Assembly (NCBI GenBank): GCA_946480825.1
Contig: CAMLLG010000022.1
Coordinates: 1 to 57,909 of the forward strand
Origin: an uncultured Lysobacteraceae bacterium
Lineage (GTDB): Bacteria > Pseudomonadota > Gammaproteobacteria > Xanthomonadales > Xanthomonadaceae
DNA: 57,909 nucleotides
Direction of reading: 5' to 3'
Position numbers and translations under genes: made by a program. The notes beneath the pieces were generated by a model, which searched no databases, was not told the origin of the DNA, and worked only from the letters and a program-made list of their open reading frames with translations. Of the stretch, positions 26,174 through 39,179 are shown one piece after another (within the stretch, counting starts at the first letter, position 1; each line of letters begins with the position of its first letter).

Positions 26174-26296
26174 ATGTTGAATCTTGATATGGAAGTTCTT
26201 GAAAACTGCGAAGCTCCGATCTCCACCCAGGAAGGCATTGGCCTGGTGATGATCGCACTCGGAACCGGCATCCTGGTCGGTCTGGCCATCACCTGA
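26174..26296 (+). CDS. Daptide-like RiPP precursor peptide 1
   Basis: 40 aa. The leader motif LNLDMEVLENCEAP matches the shared pattern L[DN]Lx[LMI][ED]xLxxxE[ATV]P. The core is a hydrophobic Gly/Ile/Leu helix ending GLAIT with the invariant C-terminal Thr. This copy is the most divergent and is the only one with a Cys, in the leader. A weak AAGAG lies before the ATG. Too small for ordinary gene finders; it is supported by the five paralogues that follow. Likely fate: terminal Thr converted by the enzymes downstream, leader removed, peptide exported. Confidence 0.88.
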   Translation: MLNLDMEVLENCEAPISTQEGIGLVMIALGTGILVGLAIT

Positions 26297-26307
26297 GCCT
26301 CGGGCTC
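26295..26307 (+). promoter_or_regulatory. Stem-loop after precursor 1
   Basis: GAGCC / GGCTC with a 3-nt loop, overlapping the stop codon; a second small hairpin (CCGGC / GCCGG) lies at 26331-26344. Confidence 0.4.
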
Positions 26308-26446
26308 TAGATGGATTAGGTCATTCCTCTCCGGCCATCGCCGGAAGCCCGAACGAATCATTTCGATTTTCGGCCGCGTGCCCTCTGCAGGGGGCTGCGC
26401 CCGACGGGTTGTGTCACACCCCAAACATCAATGAAGGAATCATTCA

Positions 26447-26581
26447 ATGAACAATTCGCTTGATCTCGCGCTGGACAACCTCGAAGTCTTCGAAGCCCCG
26501 CTGACCGATATGGAATGGGGCGTTCTCGCCGGTATCGCTCTCGGCGCCGGAATCTGGATCGGCGTCGCCGTTGCGACCTGA
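26447..26581 (+). CDS. Daptide-like RiPP precursor peptide 2
   Basis: 44 aa. Leader motif LDLALDNLEVFEAP, core beginning LTDMEWGVLAGIALGAG and ending GVAVAT. AGGAAT lies 6 nt before the ATG. The hydrophobic core has small-residue spacing (GxxxG-like) suited to a membrane-active helix. It sits between copies 1 and 3 with 150-bp and 58-bp spacers. Confidence 0.88.
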   Translation: MNNSLDLALDNLEVFEAPLTDMEWGVLAGIALGAGIWIGVAVAT

Positions 26582-26600
26582 TCGAGCCATCGCTCGATCA
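26579..26600 (+). promoter_or_regulatory. Perfect 9-bp stem-loop spanning the stop of precursor 2
   Basis: TGATCGAGC (including the TGA stop) pairs with GCTCGATCA around loop CATC. Confidence 0.6.
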
Positions 26601-36007: not shown

Positions 36008-36040
36008 TCCAATCGAGTGTCGCAGCGGGGAATTCGCTCA

Positions 36041-37270
36041 ATGAAGTTCGAAAAGAAATGGCTGGTCGCGGGTTTGATCGTGGCGATGATCGCCGTGCCC
36101 GTGATCCTCAAAAAGACGCGCGGCTCCGCATCCACCGGGGTGGATTTCGCCACCATCGAGAAAAGGCCGGTGCAGCCCAGCATTCTCGCCTCCGGTGTGC
36201 TGGCGTTCCGCAACGAAGTCGATCTCACCGCCGAAGTGACCGCGAAAGTGCGCAGCATTCTGGTGAAGGAAGGCGACAACGTGGAAAAGGGCCAGGTCCT
36301 GCTGCTGCTGGATCCCGAGATCTACAACAGCGCGATCGAGCGGGAAGAGGCCGGTTTGCGCCAGAGCGCCATCGCCATCGAGCGCCAGCGCGATCTGGTC
36401 GCCCTGCGTCAGAAACAGTTCGAACGCAGTCGCGCGCTGGTCGAACAGCGCCTGATCGACCGGGCCCGTTTCGACGAAGATCGCAACCAGCTCGAACTTG
36501 CGCGTGCCGATCTGCGGACCAGCGAGGAAGCGCGGCGGCGCGCGGCGGCGATCGTGAGCGATGCGCGCGAACAGCGCGCCAAGACCGAAGTCCGTTCTCC
36601 GATCGCGGGCCGCGTCGTGTCGATGCCGATCAAGGTGGGCGAAACCGCGGTGCCGTCGACATCGGCGTTCGCGGGCGCGCAACTGATGAAGATCGCCGAT
36701 ACCTCGGAGATCATCGCGGAGCTGAAAGTCGACGAGGCCGACATCGCCAAGATCGACATCGGCCAGCGCGCCGATGTGTTCGCCGCGGCTTACCCGGATA
36801 CCGCGCTGAAGGGGTCGGTGGAGCAGATCGCGCTCGCACCGACCATCGAGGGCCAGGGGCGCGCCTACAAGGTGACGGTGCGCCTGCAGCCGCCGGCGGG
36901 TTTGCGTCTGCGCTCGGGCATGAGCGTCCGTTCGGACATCTTCCTCGGCGACGGCGCCGACCGTCCGGCGGTACCGGTCGAAGCCGTCGTGACCGAAACC
37001 GACGAGAAAGACGTCGTCCGCCGTTACCTCTGGATCAATCGCGAGGGGCGCGCGCATCGCGTCCAGATCGAAACCGGCGCGTCGGATGATCGCTGGGAAG
37101 TCGTGACCAAGGGAGCGAAACCCGGCGACGCCGTCATCGTGGGACCGACCAAGGTCTTGCGTACCTTGCGCGAAGGCCAGGCGGTGACGCAGCGCGACCC
37201 CGAAGAGCAGGACGACGGCTCCGATGCCGAGGACGCGGAGTCCGGAGACGGCGGCAAGGACGGGGCATGA
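36041..37270 (+). CDS. MacA-type periplasmic adaptor (HlyD family)
   Basis: 409 aa. An N-terminal membrane anchor (WLVAGLIVAMIAVPVIL) precedes a lipoyl half (VRSILVKEGDNVEKGQVLL), a long coiled-coil (about residues 95-185, rich in Arg/Glu/Gln), the second lipoyl half VRSPIAGRVVSMPIKVGE and a beta-barrel. The C-terminal tail is strongly acidic (DPEEQDDGSDAEDAESGDG). It overlaps the ATPase gene by 4 bp. With the two following genes it forms a MacAB-like tripartite exporter, probably for the mature peptides; the outer-membrane channel is elsewhere. Confidence 0.9.
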   Translation: MKFEKKWLVAGLIVAMIAVPVILKKTRGSASTGVDFATIEKRPVQPSILASGVLAFRNEVDLTAEVTAKVRSILVKEGDNVEKGQVLLLLDPEIYNSAIEREEAGLRQSAIAIERQRDLVALRQKQFERSRALVEQRLIDRARFDEDRNQLELARADLRTSEEARRRAAAIVSDAREQRAKTEVRSPIAGRVVSMPIKVGETAVPSTSAFAGAQLMKIADTSEIIAELKVDEADIAKIDIGQRADVFAAAYPDTALKGSVEQIALAPTIEGQGRAYKVTVRLQPPAGLRLRSGMSVRSDIFLGDGADRPAVPVEAVVTETDEKDVVRRYLWINREGRAHRVQIETGASDDRWEVVTKGAKPGDAVIVGPTKVLRTLREGQAVTQRDPEEQDDGSDAEDAESGDGGKDGA

Positions 37271-37959
37271 TCTCGCTGCGGAACATCGTCAAGCGTTATC
37301 GAATGGGCGAAGAGGATGTGCTCGCGCTGGCCGGCGTGGACCTCGAGATCGAGCGCAACGAGTATGTCGCTCTGATCGGTCCGTCGGGCTCCGGCAAATC
37401 GACGTTGATGAATCTGCTGGGCTGTCTCGATACGCCGACGGAAGGCACCTATCTCCTCAACGGGCGCGATACCTCCGGCATGAACGACAACGAGCTCGCC
37501 CATGTCCGCAACCGGGAGATCGGTTTCGTGTTCCAGAGCTTCCATCTGCTGCCGCGCCTGACCGTGCTCCAGAACGTGATGCAGCCGTTGGTCTATCGCG
37601 GCATCCCCGTTGCGGAGCGCAAACGCCAGGCTTCCGATGCGCTGGCGAAGGTCGGCCTCGCCGATCGCATGAGTCATCGTCCGAATCAGCTTTCGGGCGG
37701 CCAGCGTCAACGCGTGGCGGTCGCGCGGGCGCTCGTCGGCTCGCCATCGATCCTTCTGGCTGACGAACCCACCGGCAATCTCGACTCGCGAACTTCCGGC
37801 GAGATCATGGCGTTGTTCGACGCGCTGCACCGACAGGGGCAGACCGTCGTGGTCGTGACTCACGAGCCCGACATCGCCGCGCATTGCCACCGCACGATCC
37901 GCGTCAACGACGGTCGCGTCGTCGAAGACGTGCGTCGTTCCGAATCGGGAGTGCACTGA
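37267..37959 (+). CDS. MacB/LolD-type ABC transporter ATPase
   Basis: 230 aa. Walker A GPSGSGKSTLMN, signature LSGGQRQRVAVARAL, Walker B ILLADEPTGNLDS and the switch His in VVVVTHEPDIA. Short ATPases of this kind pair with FtsX-type permeases. The start overlaps the adaptor stop and the end overlaps the permease ATG (TGATG). Confidence 0.95.
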   Translation: MISLRNIVKRYRMGEEDVLALAGVDLEIERNEYVALIGPSGSGKSTLMNLLGCLDTPTEGTYLLNGRDTSGMNDNELAHVRNREIGFVFQSFHLLPRLTVLQNVMQPLVYRGIPVAERKRQASDALAKVGLADRMSHRPNQLSGGQRQRVAVARALVGSPSILLADEPTGNLDSRTSGEIMALFDALHRQGQTVVVVTHEPDIAAHCHRTIRVNDGRVVEDVRRSESGVH

Positions 37960-39179
37960 TGTCGCCGCTGTTCGAAGCGTTCCGCGCCGCCATGGCGAGT
38001 TTGGCCGCGCATCGCATGCGCAGTTTCCTGACCACGCTCGGCATCCTGATCGGCACCGCATCGGTGATCGCGGTGGTGGCGCTGGTCCAGGGATTCTCGG
38101 ATTCGATCAAGGGCCAGTTTTCCGAGCTCGGCGGCAATGCGTTGACGTTGCGCGCGGTCAACGACAACGAGAATTTCCGTACGGGCAAACTCAATACGAT
38201 CACGTTCGACGATATCAACGTGCTGCGTTACCGGGTACAGGGCGTGAAGGAAGTGGCGCCGGTGATGGTGGTCAATGCGGCCGGCGTGAGCTACGAAGGG
38301 CGCACGGCCGTGCCTCAGGTGCAGGCCACGACGGCCGACTATCCGGCGGTCAACAACCGTTTCCCGAAATACGGTCGATTTCTGGTGGACAGCGACGACA
38401 AGGGGCATCGTCGGGTCGCCGTGATCGGCACGGAGTTGCGGGACCAGCTGAAGATGCCCGAGAACCCTGTCGGCGAGTACCTGCTCGTCGGCCGAGAATG
38501 GTTCAAGGTGGTCGGCATGATGGAAAAGCAGGGTGAGCTGCTCGGCTTCAGTCAGGACAATTATGTCGTGATCCCGTTCGACGTCGGTCGCGCGATGATG
38601 GGCAACAACAACGAGCCGATGATCCTCGCCACCTTCACCGCCGCGAATCTTGAGGATGTCACCCCGCTGCGCGAACGCGTGAAGCGCGCCATCCGCGCTT
38701 CGCGCGACATCGCCGACGAGAAGGACGATGACTTCAAGGTCGAGGCCGCCGATTCGTTCGTGAAGCAATTCGACGAGATCACCGTCACGGCGACCGCGGT
38801 GCTCGGCGGCATCGTCGGCATCTCGCTGCTGGTCGGCGGGATCGGCATCATGAACATCATGCTCGTGTCGGTGACCGAGCGCACCCGCGAGATCGGCGTG
38901 CTCAAGGCGCTCGGCGCCACGCGCCGCGATATTCTGGTGCAGTTCCTGCTCGAAGCGGGTCTGCTCGCATTGCTGGGCGGCCTGATGGGCATCGCATTGG
39001 GCTTCGGCGCGGCTGTCGGCCTCACGACGCTGGTGCCGGCCATCCCGCCGGCATCGGTCCCGCTGTGGGTGGTGGTCGCCGCCGCCGGCTTCTCGGCGCT
39101 GGTCGGCGTGATCTTCGGCATCATGCCGGCCTCGAAGGCTGCGAGCCTCGACCCGATCGAGGCGTTGCGGTACGAGTGA
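37959..39179 (+). CDS. MacB/FtsX-type ABC transporter permease
   Basis: 406 aa. Helix 1 is preceded by LAAHRMRSFLTTLGILIG, a MacB hallmark. A large periplasmic domain follows, then three helices with GGIGIMNIMLVSVTERTREIGVLKALGA and the end MPASKAASLDPIEALRYE. There is no fused ATPase, so this is a split MacB. Such exporters drive substrates from the periplasm outward, which fits a peptide freed by a membrane protease. Last gene of the cluster. Confidence 0.95.
   Translation: MSPLFEAFRAAMASLAAHRMRSFLTTLGILIGTASVIAVVALVQGFSDSIKGQFSELGGNALTLRAVNDNENFRTGKLNTITFDDINVLRYRVQGVKEVAPVMVVNAAGVSYEGRTAVPQVQATTADYPAVNNRFPKYGRFLVDSDDKGHRRVAVIGTELRDQLKMPENPVGEYLLVGREWFKVVGMMEKQGELLGFSQDNYVVIPFDVGRAMMGNNNEPMILATFTAANLEDVTPLRERVKRAIRASRDIADEKDDDFKVEAADSFVKQFDEITVTATAVLGGIVGISLLVGGIGIMNIMLVSVTERTREIGVLKALGATRRDILVQFLLEAGLLALLGGLMGIALGFGAAVGLTTLVPAIPPASVPLWVVVAAAGFSALVGVIFGIMPASKAASLDPIEALRYE

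Follow-up and report, generated by a model that had tools for sequence, protein, structure and literature searches.

Can a Gram-negative bacterium make daptides, the ribosomally synthesised and post-translationally modified peptides (RiPPs) whose C-terminal Thr is converted to N,N-dimethyl-1,2-propanediamine (Dmp), and which proteins would it use? The question is raised by positions 26174–39179 of a 57,909-nucleotide stretch from an uncultured Lysobacteraceae bacterium (the window; assembly GCA_946480825.1, contig CAMLLG010000022.1), in which an earlier sequence-only reading had seen a daptide-like gene cluster. The cluster is real and daptide-type. It is coherent on the plus strand, with six precursor genes followed by genes for a recognition protein (B), an S-adenosylmethionine (SAM) methyltransferase (M), an M50 protease (P), a class III aminotransferase (D), a first Yip1-domain protein (Yip1a), a short-chain dehydrogenase (SDR; C), a 71-amino-acid membrane peptide, a second Yip1-domain protein (Yip1b), a MacA-like adaptor, an ABC ATPase and a MacB-like permease. 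The gene calls of the sequence-only reading all stand, with small coordinate corrections. We consider it likely that the locus is a daptide-type RiPP operon of Pseudomonadota that encodes the full pathway proposed below, with B as a pseudo-radical-SAM scaffold. Its real departure from described daptide clusters is B, which had previously been listed without comment.

Peptides in which an amine replaces the C-terminal acid are rare, and daptides are the best-known ribosomal class. In Gram-negatives, the window cluster seems to supply a third set of enzymes for making this end group, and it is a source of new enzymes for labelling peptide C-termini. The host group had been named as a departure, but the phylum is not wholly new, as a 2023 survey of 483 clusters includes one from Pseudomonadota with three precursors (PMC10036551). 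A 2025 preprint counts 1,034 putative daptide clusters (PMC12338566). Published work is represented throughout by passages of the cited papers; the passages on daptides contain no description of B, and the cluster type may be listed in the supplements of these surveys of 483 and 1,034 clusters.

Precursor peptides

The six Thr-terminated hydrophobic mini-peptides described earlier were all recovered. They comprise A1 (26174–26296; core ISTQEGIG..LAIT), A2 (26447–26581; LTDMEWG..AVAT), A3 (26640–26774; LSNDFWNG..VALT), A4 (26983–27117, alternative start 26971; LSNDFWTG..VALT), A5 (27226–27354; VTDWWD..LIAT) and A6 (27543–27665; DWVDIAIG..LIAT). In the frames used they measure 40–44 amino acids, with hydrophobic cores of 21–26 residues, and each leader ends with L at −7, a non-polar residue (h) at −4, E at −3, any residue at −2 and P at −1. 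The conserved L −7, non-polar −4 and P −1 are positions tested in the daptide precursor MpaA1, in which replacing L(−7) or M(−4) by Ala abolished detectable oxidative decarboxylation (PMC10036551). Five of the six also match the NCBIfam model NF041808 (daptide_123; cut-off 25 bits), a result independent of our motif scan: A3 (26.5 bits), A5 (28.9) and A6 (27.8) lie above the cut-off, A2 (23.6) and A4 (21.8) below it.

The motif scan, run on both strands, sought L, two residues, a non-polar residue or Q, E/K, one of TASVC, P and a hydrophobic tail of 15–32 residues. Within the 57.9 kb window it retrieved these six precursors and nothing else, and 40 first-order Markov windows gave no match; the contrast is partly circular as the motif was defined after seeing the six. 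A looser motif added one match in the window, at 4500–4598, which does not end in Thr.

Putative maturation enzymes

Three of the enzymes named earlier, the methyltransferase, the M50 protease and the class III aminotransferase, each have a daptide model as their best NCBIfam match. For M (30006–30848), the candidate for N,N-dimethylation, this is NF041820 daptide_MTase at 163.5 bits (cut-off 175; next family 46.8); for P (30851–32056), the candidate for leader removal within the membrane, NF041824 at 274 bits (cut-off 300; next 52.7); and for D (32053–33306), a pyridoxal phosphate-type aminotransferase matching PF00202, NF041821 daptide_amino at 314 bits (cut-off 450; next 280). The runner-up family is thus far behind for M and P and close for D. 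Local identities to one Streptomyces cluster are 41% over 111 residues for M, 29% over 319 for P and 30% over 423 for D. P carries HELAH at 188 and LDG at 284–286, and H188, E189, H192, D285 and G286 are invariant in all 35 aligned sequences. That alignment joins the window protein and its Duganella counterpart to 33 of 63 protease homologues, leaving out, from the leading 40, the near-identical P0009 together with P0015, P0020, P0030 and P0046–P0048, and, beyond them, all 23 weaker homologues. An RRE (RiPP recognition element) at the P N-terminus was not established; profile comparison gave no match to the B RRE (P 0.16).

The same leader and protease could serve a different C-terminal end, such as a ketone, a primary amine or a monomethyl amine, making the products daptide-like rather than Dmp-bearing. 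The sub-cut-off scores of D and M leave room for this, as do the imidazoline ends that exist among daptides (PMC12338566). We nevertheless regard it as unlikely: activities for all three Dmp steps are encoded in the window locus and in each of three related loci (4/4), and daptide_MTase is the best family of M by 117 bits.

For the first step, the NAD(P)-dependent oxidative decarboxylases of daptide clusters belong to PF00465 in actinobacteria and to PF13561 in Bacillota, where the micrococcin/thiocillin decarboxylase is a homologue of the Bacillota DapC (PMC10036551). The window SDR (34040–34816), our candidate Thr oxidative decarboxylase, matches PF13561 at 222 bits, carries the NAD and catalytic motifs (TGxxxGIG, NNAG and YxxxK), and has 65–69% identity to its counterparts in three relatives. 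Because Bacillota clusters use PF13561 oxidoreductases, this protein would fit the first daptide step, and its description as an unexplained departure no longer holds (PMC10036551). The iron-type dehydrogenase family of MpaC (NF041822) was absent among the 10 cluster proteins scanned, and in the three relatives its matches lay on other contigs and did not exceed 81 bits.

Recognition protein B

B (28003–30009, start possibly 28021; 668 amino acids) combines a Rossmann domain of cobalamin-binding-like type, a partial barrel, a SPASM-type region with eight Cys and a C-terminal RRE, so that the cluster includes an RRE-containing partner as expected of the daptide class. In an alignment of nine B sequences, in which the protein of Massilia sp. 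DD77 stands in place of that of Massilia sp. ST3, the eight SPASM-type Cys are invariant at intervals 7-18-32-2-5-2-11, and the radical SAM motif CX3CX2C is absent from all nine. The order of the Cys is that of the eight ligands of anSMEcpe given in PMC5715301; their spacing differs from the CX2CX5CX3C consensus, and the TIGR04085 match is below cut-off. The predicted model (pLDDT 78.8, pTM 0.61) is the source of the radical-SAM-type fold assignment (VIA rows 1–11), Foldseek evidence being weaker. B thus differs from the cobalamin-dependent radical SAM enzymes TsrM, TokK, CysS and OxsB in lacking CX3CX2C, which also led us to reject an active radical SAM enzyme. Matches of B to WhiB, ribosomal L21 and sepiapterin reductase were taken as chance.

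The Actinomycetota mpa, tfDap and saDap clusters (PMC10036551, PMC12338566) share with the window Thr-terminated hydrophobic precursors, the LxxhE.P leader, a class III aminotransferase, a SAM methyltransferase, an M50 protease and an ABC exporter. They differ in having an iron-type alcohol dehydrogenase (MpaC, NF041822) where the window has an SDR, and a DUF-RRE protein of about 345–360 amino acids (MpaB, NF041823) where the window has a 668-residue pseudo-radical-SAM–RRE protein; M, P and D of the window are also below the daptide model cut-offs. The Bacillota clusters (B. cereus, S. pseudintermedius/hominicin) resemble the window in replacing the iron-type enzyme with a PF13561 oxidoreductase, often with many precursors per cluster (PMC10036551); they enter the comparison through their published description.

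The likeness to Bacillota suggests an alternative in which Gram-negatives acquired a normal Bacillota-type daptide cluster and B is merely a diverged DapB with nothing new about it. The SDR in place of an iron-type dehydrogenase would agree with this, as would a G+C content of 0.585 in the precursor region, below that of the flanks (0.667 and 0.699). However, B is some 300 residues longer than MpaB and combines a predicted fold of radical-SAM type with a set of SPASM Cys, which makes this reading quite unlikely, although with no Bacillota DapB in the comparison these features exclude it weakly.

B might alternatively still be a catalyst, and the SDR would then have another role. In some thiopeptides a second SDR reduces a ketone to an alcohol. 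A catalytic B, whose Fe-S clusters or bound cobalamin would perform either the oxidative decarboxylation or some additional modification while the SDR does a different job such as reducing a ketone to an alcohol, would explain why eight Cys are invariant in 9/9 sequences, seemingly more than a pure scaffold needs, and why the predicted model still has the Rossmann domain. Such a B is very unlikely given the absence of CX3CX2C, the mpa gene omissions that tie this step to MpaB with the NAD(P)-type enzyme MpaC, and the PF13561 oxidoreductases reported in the place of MpaC in Bacillota clusters (PMC10036551).

Possible origin of the B family

MpaB has been described as having no similarity to any known protein (PMC10036551), and BLAST finds none between it and B. 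No B protein among the nine matches the MpaB family NF041823 at E 1, nor was a match found in the three relative genomes. We compared the B profile with a DapB profile of five actinobacterial proteins, four annotated as mpaB on Streptomyces plasmids and one from Actinomyces oris, annotated helix-turn-helix, that was taken as DapB on a 24.7% match (E 1e-6) and its position adjoining mpaM and mpaD. The two profiles give one colinear alignment, columns 415–638 of B to 107–306 of DapB, with E 0.0076 and a score of 29.9 that none of 60 column shuffles reached (maximum 24.9). Without the Actinomyces protein the score is 25.5 (E 0.028), against 20.3 and 18.8 for reversed controls. Taken in parts, the pre-RRE region (P 0.0013) and the RRE (P 0.0027) both match, each with 0/80 shuffles, whereas B 1–380 gives nothing (P 0.82) and the decoys SDR (P 0.57) and protease (P 0.21) do not match. 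Weighing against the link are HH-suite probabilities of just 5–19%, the leniency of column shuffles as a control, the absence of Pfam SPASM from the five DapB proteins, whose profile matches no PDB sequences, and the lack of the SPASM Cys set in MpaB. A common origin of B and MpaB is plausible from these profile comparisons.

It is quite possible, if short of probable, that DapB/MpaB accessory proteins are decayed radical SAM–SPASM maturases. The Pseudomonadota B would be the least decayed, with cobalamin-domain-like and barrel parts and all SPASM Fe-S Cys present and the SAM cluster lost, while actinobacterial MpaB would have kept the RRE and a SPASM-like piece without the Cys set. A radical enzyme would in this way have become a peptide-presenting scaffold serving unrelated NAD(P) dehydrogenases, an SDR here and an iron-type alcohol dehydrogenase in actinobacteria. 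B, in the same gene position as MpaB and still radical-SAM-like, gives MpaB a testable origin. Separately, an Actinomyces oris plasmid (7256–13927 of the extracted locus) carries a divergent actinobacterial daptide cluster, its probable DapB annotated as helix-turn-helix and its probable protease as hypothetical.

Proposed pathway and export

In the pathway we propose from gene content, homology, predicted domain folds and conservation, B would be a cobalamin-binding-type radical SAM protein that lost its SAM cluster and kept the eight SPASM Cys, at which Fe-S binding is probably structural, and would now act as a scaffold. Its RRE would bind the LxxhE.P leader that the six precursors share, presenting the C-terminal Thr to the SDR. 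The SDR would oxidise the Thr alcohol with NAD(P)+, and loss of CO2 would leave an aminoacetone end (−46 Da); D would transaminate this ketone to an amine and M would dimethylate it, for a predicted net change of −16.94 Da relative to Thr. P would cleave after the conserved Pro within the membrane, and the Yip1, MacA, ABC and MacB set would export the peptides and protect the producer.

Daptide chemistry, as first proposed, is the best reading of the gene set because daptide families are the nearest matches of the precursors and of three enzymes and because L −7, non-polar −4 and P −1 are retained in the leaders; the terminal amine itself would be its predicted product. The search against daptide families suggested earlier bore this out for M, P and D as best matches, but all three fall below the curated cut-offs and B has no NF041823 match. 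Other points also weigh against the proposal. A1 lacks a match to the precursor model, a Massilia precursor carries Q at −4, and a related Microbulbifer genome has no match to that model at all. The substrates of the SDR are not readable from its sequence. B is twice the length of MpaB; Foldseek scores AprD4 at TM 0.25–0.37, behind two unrelated chains; the matches of B to SPASM and PqqD models stay below cut-off; and its SPASM part, where the C-terminal model is of low confidence, retrieved no SPASM fold, only the RRE being matched.

The export genes, previously counted as a departure in the form of a split MacAB exporter and two Yip1 proteins, resemble a known pump. YknWXYZ of Bacillus combines its Yip1 protein with an adaptor, an ATPase and a MacB-like permease. 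It is a four-component pump that guards Bacillus against its own SDP toxin (PMC4887032). The window has this complete set, with Yip1a (33303–34043; PF04893), a MacA-like periplasmic adaptor (36044–37270; TIGR01730 above cut-off), an ABC ATPase (37267–37959; PF00005, best NCBIfam match MacB, below the MacB cut-off) and a MacB-like permease (37959–39179; PF12704, PF02687). It differs in having a second Yip1 gene, Yip1b (35300–36007; PF04893), and in that both Yip1 proteins match the YknW model NF052650, their sole NCBIfam match, below its cut-off of 110 bits (68.6 and 65.3). By analogy, this layout suggests export with self-protection.

Relatives and conservation of the cores

Scanning 84,980 species genomes for two peptide patterns revealed at least three related loci, in an uncultured Microbulbifer (L001), Massilia sp. 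ST3 (L002) and Duganella sp. Leaf126 (L003). The order B-M-P-D-Yip1a-SDR on one strand is kept in all four loci including the window. Yip1b is likewise present in 4/4, on the opposite strand in Duganella, and MacA with a strong ABC match in 3/4, the Massilia locus having only a short permease match. Searches with B found at least eight proteins, B itself included, among 7994 scored, a lower bound as neither B search listed the Microbulbifer protein; a profile search added none. B is rare in sampled genomes, matching 2/369 in a Microbulbifer class sample (the centre genome itself and one match to the RRE part only, 21 bits) and 2/392 in a Massilia family sample, both already known. Of the 63 homologues of P, 40 form a leading group, below which scores fall from 229 to 129 bits; the few names include Colwellia and Polyangiales. 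The cluster type therefore probably extends beyond what B searches reveal.

Some candidates were set aside. M50 matches at E 1e-20 in 91 of 398 Pseudomonadota genomes were not counted as daptide clusters, the centre genome scoring 532 bits and the next 206, with most listed frames at about 600–1000 amino acids. In plasmid tblastn searches B had no match and D none at E 1e-60; among the 19 records matched by M, the Bacillus subtilis one has no daptide genes nearby, the open reading frames (ORFs) of an unannotated Streptantibioticus region looked unrelated, and an unannotated Nonomuraea region was not used. An Anoxybacillus M50 match adjoins a thiocillin-family peptide, and a Sinorhizobium one, in an unannotated region, was not used.

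We compared the cores with four Massilia and two Duganella precursors, using 300 shuffles per pair; Microbulbifer has no complete precursor. Massilia cores 1, 2 and 3 match A1 (z 8.1), A2 (z 9.9) and A4 (z 7.0; A3 6.8) with order preserved, and Massilia 4, the remaining one, has no clear partner in the window (best z 3.2). For Duganella, core 1 corresponds to A2 (z 7.4) and core 2 to A3 (z 6.6; A4 6.3, A5 5.5). Since the cores are conserved while identity of B to the window protein falls to 42% in Massilia and 34% in Duganella, a separate constraint seems to act on each class of core, as would fit peptides acting as a set. Some daptide combinations are more haemolytic (PMC10036551), and cores conserved between genera make the idea of daptides as peptide sets directly testable. 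The precursor of Massilia with Q at −4 is its first. In Microbulbifer, leader-motif remnants at 9142–9285 and 9450–9542, one without a usual start codon, lie upstream of an intact B-to-SDR operon; the precursors there may be decayed or located elsewhere.

Genomic setting and minor features

Of the five junctions from B to the SDR, four have a 4-base overlap and one a 2-base gap with the chosen start codons, a pattern expected of a single operon. About 340 bases (27665–28003) separate the last precursor from B and hold two hairpins that resemble terminators, a number not above that in shuffled sequence; this gap could tune precursor against enzyme expression. Scans of the window for promoters and terminators gave nothing exceeding shuffles, and a tRNA scan found none. 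The enzyme genes have a G+C content of 0.641, and the low value of the cluster fits acquisition from elsewhere but is no proof of it.

Ten flanking ORFs were scanned, of which five had no family match and five matched the RelA/SpoT family, RecG, an RND permease (below cut-offs), PBP1B and a TonB C-terminus, compatible with a Gram-negative chromosome. The cluster sits between a RelA/SpoT-family protein at 4608–6794 and an apparent second one, called RelA by sequence, at 39961–42168. As a rule of thumb, such a pair is consistent with a gamma- or betaproteobacterial chromosome.

A small membrane peptide of 71 amino acids (35057–35272), missing from the earlier gene list, is encoded downstream of the SDR and ahead of Yip1b and has a leader-like N-terminus and a basic C-terminus instead of Thr; a 140-amino-acid ORF enclosing it had no family match above cut-off. 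The Massilia sp. ST3 locus has a precursor-like ORF at about 7120–7278, with an LSNAYW core start and a Lys-rich tail in place of Thr. Together the two hint at unmodified companion or immunity peptides.

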